This document shows, piece after piece, positions 15,570 through 40,685 of a DNA stretch of 64,000 bases. Source of the stretch: Acidobacteriota bacterium. GTDB taxonomy: Bacteria > Acidobacteriota > Terriglobia > Terriglobales > SCQP01. The number at the start of each line of letters is the position of its first letter. The first letter of the stretch is position 1. The stretch spans positions 1-64,000 of the forward strand of contig JAKASR010000003.1 in the NCBI GenBank assembly GCA_021818955.1, read 5' to 3'. The position numbers were made by a program, and so were the translations under genes. The notes beneath the pieces are model-generated. The model was given only the letters and a program-made list of their open reading frames with translations, did not search any database and was not told the origin of the DNA.

Positions 15570-16634
15570 ATGCTGGTTATGCCATCATTTGCGCCTATTA
15601 AAAACCGGCGGATATCCTGGAATAGTTATGGAATCAGTCTATTCATGCAATTAGGAATAATATTTATTGCCGCATATTTAGGGAAAAATATTTCTTCTAA
15701 CCAGATACTTTATACAAAATACGATAGCTTGCTTTTCATCCCGCCGCCGCCCGCCAAAATAAATATTGAGACGCAACCTTCTATTATTGTCCGCTTGCGG
15801 CCGCACCCGTCCGATTATCGGCCTTCTTTATTTTCTCTAGCGCATCCGCGCCTATCCGCACCGCCGCGCCCGCTGCTGCGGCCACGCCGGTTGGTGATGA
15901 AAGCGCCGGCACCGCTGTTGCCGCATATAGCGCTGCCCCAACCGCAGCCGGCCATCCAGCCGGTGCATTTCGATAACACCATGGCCGCAGCGAGCGCCGT
16001 CCACCAGCCGCGTCTATTACGCACCGGCATGTTTCTGGGCGCACCCACAACCCGGCACACGCTCGATCCGCGCCGGGTGCAGACCGGGGGCTTTGGCAGC
16101 CCCGCGGGCGCGCGCGGGCCAGGCCGTGCGCATGGCCATGTGATGGCGCTAGGCCAATTCAGCCTGCCGGAAGGCGCGGGGCGGGGGAATGGGCAAGGCG
16201 GACGCCGGGGCGCAGCCGGACAGGTGGCGAGCATAGGGTTTGGCAGCGGCATGGGCGCGGCGGGCGGCGGCAGGCCGCGCGGCCAGGTGCAGGGCGCCGG
16301 CTTTGGACAGACGGAAACCGCCGCCGCGCCCCAGCCACGCACCGCCGCCGAGACGCCGCCGCCGACCCGCGCGGTAGTGATTTTATTCAAGCCCCACCCG
16401 GCCTACACCGCCGCCGCGCGCGCACGGCATCTTGAGGGCGATATCTGGCTCTCGGTCATCTTTCTGGCCAGCGGCCGGGTGCGCGTGCTGCGGGTGGTGC
16501 GCGGACTGGGCGCCGGGCTGGATGGCTCCGCCATGGCCGCCGCCCGCAGCATACGCTTTCGTCCCGCCCGCCGCCGCGGGCAGCCGGTGGATTTCGCCGC
16601 GCGCATACGCATTCGTTTTCGCCTGGTCCGTTGA
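15570..16634 (+). CDS. TonB-like energy transducer, copy 1
   Basis: The product has 354 residues. One membrane helix lies near residues 24-40, with only a short cytoplasmic start. A Pro-rich stretch follows at about 48-125, then a Gly/Ala-rich linker at about 150-250, and a TonB C-terminal domain at about 270-354 (YTAAARARHLEGDIWLSVIF, LGAGLDGSAMAAARSIRFRP). This is the usual plan of TonB, which spans the periplasm and touches outer-membrane receptors. No exbB or exbD is next to it. Residues from about 91 on match the second copy at 30132-31244 almost exactly, while the N-terminal part is a diverged homologue written in AT-richer DNA. It is followed after 10 bp by the M48-like gene, so the two are probably one transcript. 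Confidence 0.8.
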   Translation: MLVMPSFAPIKNRRISWNSYGISLFMQLGIIFIAAYLGKNISSNQILYTKYDSLLFIPPPPAKINIETQPSIIVRLRPHPSDYRPSLFSLAHPRLSAPPRPLLRPRRLVMKAPAPLLPHIALPQPQPAIQPVHFDNTMAAASAVHQPRLLRTGMFLGAPTTRHTLDPRRVQTGGFGSPAGARGPGRAHGHVMALGQFSLPEGAGRGNGQGGRRGAAGQVASIGFGSGMGAAGGGRPRGQVQGAGFGQTETAAAPQPRTAAETPPPTRAVVILFKPHPAYTAAARARHLEGDIWLSVIFLASGRVRVLRVVRGLGAGLDGSAMAAARSIRFRPARRRGQPVDFAARIRIRFRLVR

Positions 16635-18320
16635 GAGGTTCATCATGCGTCGAATCCTGTTTCTGCTAGGCGGCTGCCTCGTGGCTCCGTCTTGGGGGCT
16701 GGCGGCGGCGCCTCCCGCCACCTCCTCCTCGTCGCACGCCGTCAGCGCGCAGTCGGTGATCAAGGCAATGGTCGTAGAAGAACGCGGACTGGTGCTGCGC
16801 CTGCGCAAGTACCACCCCATCGTCGAAACCTATATCCAGAATCTGCGCCCCGATCCCAAGCTGGGCAATGTGCCGGTGAAAGACCATTACTATCTCGGCC
16901 AACTGGATTACCGCCAAGCCCTGGAGAAAGACGACTCCTATCTGCAAAAGCCGCCCGCCAACTGGAAAAAGCAGCTCGTTCAGCGGCTGGACCCGCTGAA
17001 CCCGCTGGATACCTATCTGGCCAGCTTTTACAGCATGCATTTTCTCAACGCCGGTTTCGTCTCCATGCTGTTTCCCGATCCCTCGCGTTTCGACCCGGGC
17101 TCGTATCGCTTCCGCTACATCCGGCAGGAATTTCTCGGCAACGTGCGCTGTTACGTTTTCAACGTGCGGCCGCGGCATGGAATCAAAGGCGCGTTTCTCG
17201 GACGCATCTGGGTGGAGGCGCGCCACGATCATCTGGTGCGCTTCAATGGCACTTTCGTGCCGCAAATGACCTTCGGCCGCTACTTCCATTTCGACAGTTG
17301 GCGGGTAAATGTCCGGCCCGGCCTGTGGGTGCCCACCTTCGTCTATAGCGAAGAATCCGACCTGCGCGGCACCAGCCTGTTCGGTTTTGCCGGGCATGCG
17401 CGTTTTGCCGCCGAGACCCATATCTGGGGCTATCAGCTCAATCGCCGCCGCCGCGCATCCACCGCCTCGCAGATGATCGTGGAAGGCGCGGTCAAAGATC
17501 ACGCCAGCTCCAGCGACGGCTATTCCCCGATTGAGGCGGAGCGGCTGTGGCAGCGTGAAGCCGAAAACAACGTGCTGCACAGGCTGCAAAAGGCGGGCAT
17601 GCTGGCGCCTCCCGGCCCGGTCGATAAAATGCTCGAAACCGTGGTCAACAACCTGGAAATCACCAACCATCTCAATATCGAGCCGGCGGTGCGCTGCCGG
17701 GTGCTGCTGGTCACGCCGCTGGTGGCGTTCAGCATCGGCCACACCATCGTGCTTAGCCGCGGCTTAATCGATGTGCTGCCCGACGAGCCTTCGCTGGCGC
17801 TGATGCTGGCGCGCGGCCTGGCCGCGATCGTCAAGGGCGAGCCGATCGACACCAAGTTCGCTTTCTTCGACCGCATGCTGATTCCCAACGATCAGGTCTT
17901 TAAAAAGTTCCAGTTGCGCCTGGGCCGCATGGAGCAATCCAAAATCGACCGTGAAACCGTGGCGCTGATGCAACGCTCGCCTTATAAAAACCAGTTGGGA
18001 CAGGTGGGTTTGTTCCTGGAAGCGATGCGGGCGCGGGCTAAGGCGCTGCCGCACTTGATGGGCAGCGCAATCATCAGCGCACCGCTGGTCAAGCAGCAGC
18101 CGGCCAGCCATTCCGCGGCCTGGCTCCAACCGCTGCTCAAAGCCGCACCGCCGCTGGAATTCGCCTCGGTCAAGCAGATTGAAGCCTTGCCGCTCGGCAG
18201 CCGGCTCCAGCTCAGTCCCTGGAGCGATGGCTTGAGCTTGCTCAAAACCCCGCCGATCAGCCTGATGTCGGCGGCGGAAAAAATGCCTTTCCAGGTGACA
18301 CCGCAACGGCCTTACCTGCA
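15841..18320 (+). repeat. 2,480-bp direct repeat, copy 1 (TonB C-terminal part + M48-like gene)
   Basis: This segment recurs at 30451-32930 in the same direction, with an offset of 14,610 bases. About a dozen base differences are visible in the first ~280 bases; beyond 16115 I see none. Both edges are abrupt and lie inside coding regions, so the flanking codons of the two gene pairs differ. Confidence 0.9.
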
Positions 18321-18408
18321 ATATAAAACCGGACAGCTTAAGCGTCTCAACAGCCTCCAGTCCCGGCTTTCCGCCCGGATTTTGGCTCCGTTCAAGCCGG
18401 CACATTAG
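16645..18408 (+). CDS. Exported M48-like peptidase homologue without the HExxH motif, copy 1
   Basis: The ATG at 16645 opens a signal peptide (MRRILFLLGGCLVAPSWGLA), giving 587 residues. Residues ~25-330 form an uncharacterised periplasmic part. Residues ~330-470 follow the M48 pattern: VVNNLEITNHLNIEP, then FSIGHTIVLSRGLIDVLPDE, then LMLARGLAAIV. In M48 enzymes the last block reads VLAHELAHIV with zinc ligands in HExxH. Here those five positions are Arg390-Gly-Leu-Ala-Ala394, so both His and the catalytic Glu are gone. Zinc proteolysis is therefore unlikely, and a binding or chaperone role is more probable. The gene is 10 bp behind the TonB-like gene. The last 28 residues (after PYL) differ from those of copy 2. 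Confidence 0.75.
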   Translation: MRRILFLLGGCLVAPSWGLAAAPPATSSSSHAVSAQSVIKAMVVEERGLVLRLRKYHPIVETYIQNLRPDPKLGNVPVKDHYYLGQLDYRQALEKDDSYLQKPPANWKKQLVQRLDPLNPLDTYLASFYSMHFLNAGFVSMLFPDPSRFDPGSYRFRYIRQEFLGNVRCYVFNVRPRHGIKGAFLGRIWVEARHDHLVRFNGTFVPQMTFGRYFHFDSWRVNVRPGLWVPTFVYSEESDLRGTSLFGFAGHARFAAETHIWGYQLNRRRRASTASQMIVEGAVKDHASSSDGYSPIEAERLWQREAENNVLHRLQKAGMLAPPGPVDKMLETVVNNLEITNHLNIEPAVRCRVLLVTPLVAFSIGHTIVLSRGLIDVLPDEPSLALMLARGLAAIVKGEPIDTKFAFFDRMLIPNDQVFKKFQLRLGRMEQSKIDRETVALMQRSPYKNQLGQVGLFLEAMRARAKALPHLMGSAIISAPLVKQQPASHSAAWLQPLLKAAPPLEFASVKQIEALPLGSRLQLSPWSDGLSLLKTPPISLMSAAEKMPFQVTPQRPYLQYKTGQLKRLNSLQSRLSARILAPFKPAH

Positions 18409-22488: not shown

Positions 22489-23073
22489 TCAAGATGCTGG
22501 CGAAAACAACGCCCGCTCGACGATTTCGCAGAGCACGTGTCCGATTAAAATATGGCATTCCTGTATCCGGGGCGTATCATCGGAGGGCACCGCCAGCAGA
22601 ATATCGACTTTGGCGGCCATAGCCCCGCCGCCGGCCCCGGTCAGGCCCAGGGTGCTCAGGCGCTGCTGCCGCGCCCAATCGAGTGCAGCCAAAATATTGC
22701 GCGAATTGCCGGACGTGCTGATTGCAACCACCAGGTCGCCCGGCGCCGCCAGGGCCTCTAACGGGCGCAGGAAGCTGGCCTCATAGCCAAAATCGTTGCC
22801 GATTGCCGTCAGCGAGGAAGTGTTGGTGTGCAGCGCCAGCGCCGGCAGCGCCCGCCGGTTCAGGCGATAACGCCCGACAAATTCGGCGGCCAGGTGCTGC
22901 GCGTCGGCCGCGCTGCCGCCATTACCCATGAACAGGGCTTTATTGCCGGCGCGGTAGGTGGCCACCAGCCGCTCGGCGGCGACAACCAGCGGCCGCTGCA
23001 GCTGCTCTAGCGCCGCTTGCTTGACGGCAAGGCTGCTTTTAAAACTGTCGCGAATGATGCTGTCGTAGTTCAT
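22489..23073 (-). CDS. gmhA: Sedoheptulose-7-phosphate isomerase
   Basis: The product has 194 residues from the ATG at 23073, the normal size of GmhA. It converts sedoheptulose 7-phosphate into D-glycero-D-manno-heptose 7-phosphate, the first step to the ADP-heptose of LPS. The SIS fold shows GNGGSAADAQHLAAEFVGR near residue 52, STSGNSRNIL near 115 and PRIQECHILIGHVLCE near 168, with the conserved Glu and His. A longer frame to 23229 has no family similarity. The hldA-type kinase of the same pathway is at 44446. A broken 5' copy of this gene and its upstream region is at 40512-40690. A degenerate form of the TATCCGACTGGCT motif lies about 77 bp upstream of the start. Confidence 0.88.
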   Translation of the reverse strand: MNYDSIIRDSFKSSLAVKQAALEQLQRPLVVAAERLVATYRAGNKALFMGNGGSAADAQHLAAEFVGRYRLNRRALPALALHTNTSSLTAIGNDFGYEASFLRPLEALAAPGDLVVAISTSGNSRNILAALDWARQQRLSTLGLTGAGGGAMAAKVDILLAVPSDDTPRIQECHILIGHVLCEIVERALFSPAS

Positions 23074-23348
23074 CTCTGCCTGAATCCTGTCCGGGAAATT
23101 GACGGCTGATTCGTTTGCGGTTTTTGCGCATTCAGCAAACAAGTTATTGTATCCGACCGGCTGGCCCCCTCCCGGCCCCGCTACATCGGCTCTCGCTTGC
23201 GCGGCGAAATTTTTGCGGCTTTCCTGCAAGAAAGATCCGCTGGATTATGCCGCCCTGTGCATGAGCAAAATTGTACAGCGGTGTATAACGATCCAGCCCA
23301 TATTGAATCAGGCAGTATGAGGTCAAATTTTAACAGGAGAATTCAGCC

Positions 23349-30010: not shown

Positions 30011-30131
30011 ACCTGATTGAGCCGCAGCGTGATTGCCGATTCAATAGAACCACGATCTTTAGCCGAAAGTAGTAGCCGCTGCAGTTCCGCCTTGCCGCGC
30101 CGCTTCTCCGGGTTCCAGCAGGTTTTTGTCC

Positions 30132-31244
30132 ATGGCAGAAATTCATTCTTCGGATCCCGGCGCGGAGACCGAAGCCCAGACGGATGTGAGCGTGCCCTCG
30201 TTTGGCACGCTCGAAGCCGGTCGCCTGCCCTGGAAGGGCTATGGCGCCGGGTTCCTGCTGCAGTGCGCCGTGATCGTGATCCTGGGCTGGCTGGGTATCA
30301 GCGTCGGCACGCGCACGATTTTCCGGCCGAAATACGAAACCCTGCTGACGCCAATCGCGCCGTCCAAGCCGGTCAAGCTGCACGCCTTGCCGCGGCCGCG
30401 CGCGCTGCGTCATCTGGCCGAATTTCAGGCGCTGGCGCCGCTAGAGATTCCGCATCCGCGCCTATCCGCGCCGGCGCGCTCGCTGCCGCGGCCACGCCGG
30501 TTGGTGATGAAAGCGCCGGCACCGCTGTTGCCGCATATAGCGCTGCCCCAACCGCAGCCGGCCATCCAGCCGGTGCATTTCGATAACACCATGGCCGCAG
30601 CGAGCGCCGTCCACCAGCCGCGTCTATTGCGCACCGACATGTTTCTGGGCGCGCCCACAACCCGGCACACGCTCGATCCGCGCCGGGTGCAGACCGGGGA
30701 CTTTGGCAGCCCCGCAGGCACGCGCGGGCCAGGCCGTGCGCATGGCCATGTGATGGCGCTAGGCCAATTCAGCCTGCCGGAAGGCGCGGGGCGGGGGAAT
30801 GGGCAAGGCGGACGCCGGGGCGCAGCCGGACAGGTGGCGAGCATAGGGTTTGGCAGCGGCATGGGCGCGGCGGGCGGCGGCAGGCCGCGCGGCCAGGTGC
30901 AGGGCGCCGGCTTTGGACAGACGGAAACCGCCGCCGCGCCCCAGCCACGCACCGCCGCCGAGACGCCGCCGCCGACCCGCGCGGTAGTGATTTTATTCAA
31001 GCCCCACCCGGCCTACACCGCCGCCGCGCGCGCACGGCATCTTGAGGGCGATATCTGGCTCTCGGTCATCTTTCTGGCCAGCGGCCGGGTGCGCGTGCTG
31101 CGGGTGGTGCGCGGACTGGGCGCCGGGCTGGATGGCTCCGCCATGGCCGCCGCCCGCAGCATACGCTTTCGTCCCGCCCGCCGCCGCGGGCAGCCGGTGG
31201 ATTTCGCCGCGCGCATACGCATTCGTTTTCGCCTGGTCCGTTGA
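30132..31244 (+). CDS. TonB-like energy transducer, copy 2
   Basis: The product has 370 residues from the ATG at 30132. A cytoplasmic lead of ~38 residues precedes one membrane helix (GFLLQCAVIVILGWLGI, about 40-57). Then come the Pro-rich stretch, the Gly-rich linker and the TonB C-terminal domain (last ~85 residues). From HPRLSAP on it is nearly identical to copy 1, with five or six residue changes before RGPGRAHGHVM and none visible after. The N-terminal parts of the two copies are related only at distance: copy 2 has VPSFGTLEAG...WKGYG and KYETLLTPI, copy 1 has MPSFAPIKN...WNSYG and KYDSLLFIP. The M48-like copy 2 starts 10 bp after the stop. Confidence 0.8.
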   Translation: MAEIHSSDPGAETEAQTDVSVPSFGTLEAGRLPWKGYGAGFLLQCAVIVILGWLGISVGTRTIFRPKYETLLTPIAPSKPVKLHALPRPRALRHLAEFQALAPLEIPHPRLSAPARSLPRPRRLVMKAPAPLLPHIALPQPQPAIQPVHFDNTMAAASAVHQPRLLRTDMFLGAPTTRHTLDPRRVQTGDFGSPAGTRGPGRAHGHVMALGQFSLPEGAGRGNGQGGRRGAAGQVASIGFGSGMGAAGGGRPRGQVQGAGFGQTETAAAPQPRTAAETPPPTRAVVILFKPHPAYTAAARARHLEGDIWLSVIFLASGRVRVLRVVRGLGAGLDGSAMAAARSIRFRPARRRGQPVDFAARIRIRFRLVR

Positions 31245-32930
31245 GAGGTTCATCATGCGTCGAATCCTGTTTCTGCTAGGCGGCTGCCTCGTGGCTCCGT
31301 CTTGGGGGCTGGCGGCGGCGCCTCCCGCCACCTCCTCCTCGTCGCACGCCGTCAGCGCGCAGTCGGTGATCAAGGCAATGGTCGTAGAAGAACGCGGACT
31401 GGTGCTGCGCCTGCGCAAGTACCACCCCATCGTCGAAACCTATATCCAGAATCTGCGCCCCGATCCCAAGCTGGGCAATGTGCCGGTGAAAGACCATTAC
31501 TATCTCGGCCAACTGGATTACCGCCAAGCCCTGGAGAAAGACGACTCCTATCTGCAAAAGCCGCCCGCCAACTGGAAAAAGCAGCTCGTTCAGCGGCTGG
31601 ACCCGCTGAACCCGCTGGATACCTATCTGGCCAGCTTTTACAGCATGCATTTTCTCAACGCCGGTTTCGTCTCCATGCTGTTTCCCGATCCCTCGCGTTT
31701 CGACCCGGGCTCGTATCGCTTCCGCTACATCCGGCAGGAATTTCTCGGCAACGTGCGCTGTTACGTTTTCAACGTGCGGCCGCGGCATGGAATCAAAGGC
31801 GCGTTTCTCGGACGCATCTGGGTGGAGGCGCGCCACGATCATCTGGTGCGCTTCAATGGCACTTTCGTGCCGCAAATGACCTTCGGCCGCTACTTCCATT
31901 TCGACAGTTGGCGGGTAAATGTCCGGCCCGGCCTGTGGGTGCCCACCTTCGTCTATAGCGAAGAATCCGACCTGCGCGGCACCAGCCTGTTCGGTTTTGC
32001 CGGGCATGCGCGTTTTGCCGCCGAGACCCATATCTGGGGCTATCAGCTCAATCGCCGCCGCCGCGCATCCACCGCCTCGCAGATGATCGTGGAAGGCGCG
32101 GTCAAAGATCACGCCAGCTCCAGCGACGGCTATTCCCCGATTGAGGCGGAGCGGCTGTGGCAGCGTGAAGCCGAAAACAACGTGCTGCACAGGCTGCAAA
32201 AGGCGGGCATGCTGGCGCCTCCCGGCCCGGTCGATAAAATGCTCGAAACCGTGGTCAACAACCTGGAAATCACCAACCATCTCAATATCGAGCCGGCGGT
32301 GCGCTGCCGGGTGCTGCTGGTCACGCCGCTGGTGGCGTTCAGCATCGGCCACACCATCGTGCTTAGCCGCGGCTTAATCGATGTGCTGCCCGACGAGCCT
32401 TCGCTGGCGCTGATGCTGGCGCGCGGCCTGGCCGCGATCGTCAAGGGCGAGCCGATCGACACCAAGTTCGCTTTCTTCGACCGCATGCTGATTCCCAACG
32501 ATCAGGTCTTTAAAAAGTTCCAGTTGCGCCTGGGCCGCATGGAGCAATCCAAAATCGACCGTGAAACCGTGGCGCTGATGCAACGCTCGCCTTATAAAAA
32601 CCAGTTGGGACAGGTGGGTTTGTTCCTGGAAGCGATGCGGGCGCGGGCTAAGGCGCTGCCGCACTTGATGGGCAGCGCAATCATCAGCGCACCGCTGGTC
32701 AAGCAGCAGCCGGCCAGCCATTCCGCGGCCTGGCTCCAACCGCTGCTCAAAGCCGCACCGCCGCTGGAATTCGCCTCGGTCAAGCAGATTGAAGCCTTGC
32801 CGCTCGGCAGCCGGCTCCAGCTCAGTCCCTGGAGCGATGGCTTGAGCTTGCTCAAAACCCCGCCGATCAGCCTGATGTCGGCGGCGGAAAAAATGCCTTT
32901 CCAGGTGACACCGCAACGGCCTTACCTGCA
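30451..32930 (+). repeat. 2,480-bp direct repeat, copy 2
   Basis: Same-direction partner of 15841-18320. The left edge lies inside the TonB-like gene at codons for PHPRLS and the right edge at codons for RPYL of the M48-like gene. No terminal inverted repeats or target duplication are seen at either edge, which speaks against a transposon and for copying by recombination. Confidence 0.9.
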
Positions 32931-32988
32931 CCGTGTGCAGTCGCCCTCCGAAATGGCCGTGGCCGATACCCAGCCGGCGGCAAGATAG
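31255..32988 (+). CDS. Exported M48-like peptidase homologue without the HExxH motif, copy 2
   Basis: The product has 577 residues. It is the same as copy 1 (16645-18408) from the signal peptide to residue ~558 as far as I can see by eye, including RGLAA in place of the HExxH zinc motif at residues 390-394. After PYL it ends with HRVQSPSEMAVADTQPAAR, a tail different from copy 1. Because both copies carry the same loss, the motif was lost before the core was copied. It forms a two-gene unit with the TonB-like copy 2. The product is probably periplasmic, or attached to the outer membrane through a partner; it has no lipobox. Confidence 0.75.
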   Translation: MRRILFLLGGCLVAPSWGLAAAPPATSSSSHAVSAQSVIKAMVVEERGLVLRLRKYHPIVETYIQNLRPDPKLGNVPVKDHYYLGQLDYRQALEKDDSYLQKPPANWKKQLVQRLDPLNPLDTYLASFYSMHFLNAGFVSMLFPDPSRFDPGSYRFRYIRQEFLGNVRCYVFNVRPRHGIKGAFLGRIWVEARHDHLVRFNGTFVPQMTFGRYFHFDSWRVNVRPGLWVPTFVYSEESDLRGTSLFGFAGHARFAAETHIWGYQLNRRRRASTASQMIVEGAVKDHASSSDGYSPIEAERLWQREAENNVLHRLQKAGMLAPPGPVDKMLETVVNNLEITNHLNIEPAVRCRVLLVTPLVAFSIGHTIVLSRGLIDVLPDEPSLALMLARGLAAIVKGEPIDTKFAFFDRMLIPNDQVFKKFQLRLGRMEQSKIDRETVALMQRSPYKNQLGQVGLFLEAMRARAKALPHLMGSAIISAPLVKQQPASHSAAWLQPLLKAAPPLEFASVKQIEALPLGSRLQLSPWSDGLSLLKTPPISLMSAAEKMPFQVTPQRPYLHRVQSPSEMAVADTQPAAR

Positions 32989-40511: not shown

Positions 40512-40588
40512 GATAACTGCTCCAGCGCCGCTTGCTTTACGGCAAGGCTGCTTTCAAAGCTCTCGCGAATGATGCTGTCGTAGTTCAT
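40512..40588 (-). pseudogene. gmhA 5' fragment (first ~25 codons)
   Basis: The minus strand from an ATG at 40588 reads MNYDSIIRESFESSLAVKQA and ALEQL, the same as the start of gmhA at 23073 but for D-to-E and K-to-E changes. After codon ~25 the similarity ends abruptly and the frame runs into unrelated sequence. The ~95 bp upstream are also related to the gmhA upstream region. It is a partial duplicate lying 246 bp before glmS on the opposite strand. Confidence 0.8.
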
Positions 40589-40665
40589 CTCTGCTTGAGC
40601 CATTTCCAGGATATTGCCTATAGGTAAGTCCCTCGAGCCCTGCGCATTACGCAAATAAGTCATCG

Positions 40666-40685
40666 TATCCGACTGGCTAGGTCAT
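40666..40685. promoter_or_regulatory. Shared 20-bp upstream motif, copy before gmhA fragment and glmS
   Basis: The sequence TATCCGACTGGCTAGGTCAT occurs here and again exactly at 45488-45507. A degenerate form (TATCCGACCGGCTGG) lies at 23150. All three are upstream of minus-strand heptose-pathway starts (gmhA fragment, hldA-type gene, gmhA). It may be a control site or just a trace of duplication. Confidence 0.45.

Follow-up and report, generated by a model that had tools for sequence, protein, structure and literature searches.

A gene for a TonB-like transducer is found directly upstream of a gene for an exported protein with a LolA/RseB-like and an M48-like domain, in most of the loci that we sampled from the Acidobacteriota and in more than one class of that phylum. 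We computed this pairing, both folds, the zinc-site changes that recur under selection and the short motifs of the transducer linker. They would fit an envelope module of the Acidobacteriota, in which the TonB-type transducer recruits the LolA–M48 protein as a client handler and exerts force on, or holds, an outer-membrane partner, a reading that we favour tentatively and rate at a little short of even. The docking between the two proteins, the force, the client and the quality-control role are what we infer. The component families are known; a description of the TonB and LolA–M48 pair in combination was not found in the open-licence papers searched.

The window, that is, the whole stretch of 64,000 nucleotides analysed here (G000:C29:1-64000; 60% GC), belongs to a 3.8-Mb genome in 47 contigs and carries the pair twice:

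15570..16634, + strand: copy 1, TonB-like transducer of 354 aa, with a transmembrane (TM) helix, a Pro-rich stretch, a GF-motif linker and TonB_C (ORF; TonB_C E 6e-13; structure model)
16645..18408, + strand: copy 1, exported LolA-like plus M48-like protein of 587 aa (ORF; family of at least 177; AlphaFold model)
30126..31244, + strand: copy 2, TonB-like transducer, start at TTG 30126 or ATG 30132 (ORF; TonB_C E 6.5e-13)
31255..32988, + strand: copy 2, LolA-like plus M48-like protein of 577 aa, with the same degenerate zinc site (ORF; alignment)
15841..18320, + strand: homogenised tract, copy 1 side (99.6% identity to 30451-32930)
30451..32930, + strand: homogenised tract, copy 2 side (99.6% identity to 15841-18320)

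The initial annotation described a gene for a TonB_C protein and, 10 bp downstream, one for an exported M48-like protein, with the pair recurring, and the ORFs and Pfam TonB_C matches bear this out; the 10-bp spacing is found at both sites in the ORF listing. Its point that the pair is present twice stands in that two copies exist, but they make weak evidence, since they are 99.6% identical over a tract of 2,480 bp. All 10 mismatches in this tract fall within its first 270 bp, at 15860-16110, a placement with a probability of about 2e-10 if random. The N-termini of the two TonB proteins, which lie outside the tract, are homologous (protein score 108 vs at most 41 in shuffles) yet diverged, and the N-terminal part of the copy 1 TonB gene (15570-15840) has a GC content of 41%, vs 65% in copy 2 and the shared tract. 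These features are most simply explained by recent gene conversion acting on the copies of an older duplication. Because the paralogues look homogenised in this way, the two copies are not independent observations, and the second was rejected as independent evidence. It could conceivably be an assembly error, although the copy ends beyond the tract differ from each other. The near-identical duplication and the LolA-like N-terminal domain were both overlooked in the initial annotation. Genome-wide, there are five M48-like copies, with a TonB gene upstream of four and one paralogue lacking it. Elsewhere in the window, a 161-bp repeat at 23002-23162 and 40517-40678 (79% identity), the sole two copies in the genome, matched nothing in Rfam and had an unremarkable predicted RNA fold; one of the two extends over the start of a sugar-phosphate isomerase-like gene. 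The window as a whole gave no Rfam matches.

The M48-like homologue tree comprised 177 members, with enough upstream sequence at 171 loci. In 149 of these 171 testable loci, which were sampled by similarity ranking and are relatives rather than independent cases, the next gene upstream is a TonB_C gene in the same orientation. The 149 include every testable locus from the phylum's other classes (8 of 8), and thus the adjacency noted in the window is no local accident. The TonB gene is absent upstream in the other 22, the own-genome paralogue among them. In the reverse direction, the top 30 TonB relatives all have an M48-like sequence downstream, 26 of these matches being clear and adjacent and the other 4 incomplete, farther away or located where a contig ends; TonB_C matches across the whole genome number only 10. 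At a loose cut-off, 227 of the 250 genomes from the class contain an M48-like match, although the weak matches may cover a single domain; 80 named loci also match the M48-like protein. Judged by gene order, the linkage of the two genes across classes is not due to chance.

Such linkage does not by itself imply a common job, given that co-transcription alone can hold genes adjacent. The two genes may then have been co-transcribed by ancient chance without any shared function, the window duplicate being a local accident. The second copy in the window is indeed a recently homogenised duplicate, and the TonB neighbour is missing beside some homologues. We nevertheless consider this highly improbable: the two genes stay linked in different classes although every other neighbour changes, and neither of the two linker motifs of the transducer, V..GF and VxLG, occurs in two further TonBs that this genome encodes. 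No third conserved operon gene was seen, the commonest other neighbour family being present in 32 of 166 loci, and a search for TonB–M48 fusion proteins found none. Several loci have features of their own. One (L183, G075:C83) has tandem M48-like genes with the TonB gene in between, and another (L072), in a record titled Betaproteobacteria, has the acidobacterial pair and is probably mis-binned. At 29 loci, the M48-like gene is followed on its own strand by an outer-membrane beta-barrel gene, sometimes in tandem. This arrangement is frequent in one clade, and the one such gene tested (L185:5531-6361) matched PF13505.

The second protein of the pair is resolved into two domains, the latter with an altered zinc motif:

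16741..17457, + strand: copy 1, residues 33-271, LolA/RseB-like domain at the N-terminus (VIA-align, Z 8.3 with 4z48, 3bk5 and 3buu)
17536..18258, + strand: copy 1, residues 298-538, M48-like domain at the C-terminus (Z 15.2 to BepA 6ait, Z 14.7 to 3c37)
17812..17826, + strand: copy 1, degenerate zinc motif RGLAA replacing HExxH (alignments)

On their own, the window M48-like proteins match no Pfam family, PF01435 included, and no NCBIfam family. The family is tied to M48 because a same-genome paralogue on contig C32, with 44% identity to the window protein and HELAH retained, matches Pfam Peptidase_M48 above cut-off. PF01435 is matched by 40 of 43 aligned relatives. This paralogue match, together with the fit of the AlphaFold model (mean pLDDT 74) to BepA, supports the earlier assignment as an M48 homologue. 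BepA (YfgC), the E. coli M48 protease/chaperone for outer-membrane protein assembly, has the M48 fold in common with the present protein, and most active members also have its four zinc-ligand positions, the His-switch position included (PMC7950410). The two differ in the LolA-like N-domain, the TonB gene partner and the loss of the zinc site in many members of the present family. Moreover, BepA aligns over the M48 part only, its TPR part being unmatched in a protein that ends at residue 587, and a fold search with the remaining parts of the model found no TPR and no other domain. LoiP and HtpX, which are also M48 proteins, match the active members weakly in NCBIfam around HExxH, LoiP best, far under the curated cut-offs; their domain architecture and gene context are unlike those of the present protein. 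The M48-like domain also bears a weak structural resemblance to the M56 proteins BlaR1/MecR1 (BlaR1, Z 6.7 at 10 Å rmsd), but BlaR1 is a multi-pass membrane protein, whereas the M48-like protein looks soluble and exported. A crude lipobox pattern is present in 6 of 167 M48-like proteins, and a lipoprotein signal reading was rejected.

The N-terminal domain resembles LolA, LolB and RseB/MucB and is here fused to an M48 domain. The resemblance is at the fold level only: residues 33-271 are modelled as a LolA-type half-barrel, and the Z of 8.3 is at the edge of what a mere common arrangement would give. Relatives of this domain are short stand-alone exported proteins across the phylum with PF17131 matches below cut-off; L239-L243 are LolA-like proteins of this kind, widespread in the phylum. 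The presence of RseB and MucB among the fold matches brings to mind an envelope-stress sensor. In such a system, the LolA/RseB-like domain would sense mislocalised lipid or lipoprotein, the M48 domain would cut or expose a signalling protein, TonB would be the transmembrane messenger and the dead forms would be decoys. Response-regulator and histidine-kinase genes do occur near the pair in about 30 loci, but most of them are encoded on the other strand, and they are confined to subsets of the loci. In addition, the cytoplasmic N-terminal part of TonB is short and poorly conserved, and no conserved anti-sigma factor was seen beside the pair. A sensor is therefore unlikely.

The window copies were initially annotated as protease-dead, and the alignments agree: the HELAH of the paralogue aligns with RGLAA, the third zinc ligand has changed from E to Q, and the plug histidine, at the BepA His-switch position, is also lost. 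The description of the fold as non-catalytic, on the other hand, cannot be extended to the family, where HExxH is retained in 109 of 177 relatives and the dead state looks derived several times. Members were defined as active by HExxH; the third ligand and plug His, the equivalents by sequence position of BepA E201 and H246 (its third zinc ligand and His-switch positions; PMC7950410), played no part in this definition. The third ligand is E in 106 of the 109 active members, and the plug His is kept in 102; among the 68 dead members, these positions are preserved in 17 and 7, respectively. A tree-corrected test for joint loss of the zinc ligands gave no significance, with 9 independent pairs being too few. 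The best tree, a quick one with a root for drawing only, has 11 changes of catalytic state, 9 of them forced by well-supported branches. Loss is favoured over gain because the members from other classes are intact and the fold is that of M48; catalysis looks ancestral and repeatedly lost. The dead M48-like genes are under purifying selection, with a median dN/dS of 0.091 vs 0.074 in active ones, by simple NG86 counts in which some pairs are near silent-site saturation. A pseudogene reading of the M48-like genes was rejected, given the open ORFs and the dN/dS of about 0.09 in dead relatives. Within the class, the TonB gene accompanies dead and active forms equally often (58 of 67 and 83 of 96, respectively).

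The transducer has the following parts:

15618..15695, + strand: copy 1, TM segment, with Q27 where E. coli TonB has His20 (hydrophobicity; alignment with the E. coli TonB TM)
16077..16307, + strand: copy 1, conserved linker with V..GF repeats (VQTGGFGSP ... VASIGFG ... VQGAGFG) (invariant columns, 42 relatives; motif excess over shuffles)
16392..16625, + strand: copy 1, TonB_C domain (profile match)

PF03544 (TonB_C) is matched over cut-off in both copies, with E about 6e-13, and TonB_C is present in 42 of 42 relatives. The copy 1 model has a helix at 17-50 and a folded C-domain at about 266-350. The protein is like the TonB of TonB-ExbB-ExbD (and TolA of TolA-TolQR) in its single TM helix, Pro-rich stretch and TonB_C, but it has no adjoining ExbBD, a residue other than His at the His20 position, a conserved GF-motif linker and an M48-like partner gene. 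TonB_C normally engages outer-membrane receptors, and the domain is intact here. The pair could then be an uptake helper, with the LolA–M48 protein as a periplasmic binding or processing protein for the substrate of a receptor served by this TonB. We find this quite unlikely, given that no receptor or transporter gene is prominent among the conserved neighbours and that the N-domain relatives are LolA-like rather than solute-binding proteins. TonB_C also ends two exported BNR/YCF48-like repeat proteins with no obvious TM anchor (L010, L013; G000:C5:5859-6089, C29:89607-89825).

The linker is conserved nearly as well as TonB_C (0.70 vs 0.73), in contrast to the Pro-rich part (0.36). Although the motif patterns were picked after sequence inspection, V..GF occurs about 3 times per protein (2.7-3.9) outside the VxLG clade, vs 0.2-0.3 in shuffles. 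In one large, best-sampled dead clade, VxLG repeats replace it (3.4 vs 0.2 in shuffles). From these patterns, the short linker motifs are probably docking motifs. Their shortness, repetition and high conservation would also suit a TonB partner that is itself a substrate or regulator of the protease, the V..GF repeats adding to the M48 edge strand to be cut in active lineages and only bound in dead ones. The exchange for VxLG in that dead clade looks as if the partners had co-changed. V..GF is, however, kept by other dead clades, and the motif change is a single event; we regard a substrate role as decidedly doubtful.

How the recruiting transducer of our preferred module would be energised is less certain. 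E. coli TonB His20 contacts ExbB (PMC12215075), and the energisation of the window TonB is uncertain because Gln occupies this site; the Ser16/His20 (SHLS) TM motif is missing there. Among relatives, the position is mostly Q, and N in one large clade; His is found in 8 of 135 in the class vs 7 of 8 in other classes. It is true, as first annotated, that no ExbBD is near. This is a weak argument, as the only ExbB/ExbD genes of the genome, in a TonB-ExbB-ExbD-ExbD locus on contig C41, could serve the window TonB in trans.

In the module that we propose, the product of the first gene would be an inner-membrane-anchored TonB-type transducer with periplasmic linker motifs ahead of TonB_C, probably energised by ExbBD in trans, and these motifs would recruit the LolA–M48 protein. 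The LolA/RseB-like domain would bind a lipid, lipoprotein or unfolded outer-membrane client, which the BepA-like M48 domain could cut. The transducer would pass force to, or hold, an outer-membrane partner in assembly or quality control; the suggestion of the initial annotation that the system pulls on or holds such a partner is a reasonable one. In several lineages, that of the window included, the M48 domain without its zinc site would be a non-cutting binding domain. The LolA–M48 protein may, by analogy with BepA, act on outer-membrane clients. In E. coli, BepA plays two distinct parts towards LptD at BAM, one chaperone-like and the other proteolytic, and a weakened chaperone-like activity remains in the protease-dead E137Q mutant (PMC8423444). 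A bolder version, which we think unlikely, would be a PMF-coupled proteostasis machine, whose TonB-type arm carries the LolA–M48 protein across the periplasm via the docking motifs and puts force on stuck outer-membrane proteins or lipoproteins, the protease arm being optional and repeatedly switched off.

Because the protein has lost catalysis repeatedly while remaining under selection and paired with TonB, it offers natural mutants with which the holding and cutting roles of M48 proteins could be told apart. The conserved combination of TonB with a BepA-like, LolA-fused protein would make the Acidobacteriota, a large and little-studied phylum, a place to look for outer-membrane quality control that is coupled to energy, with this pair as the candidate.
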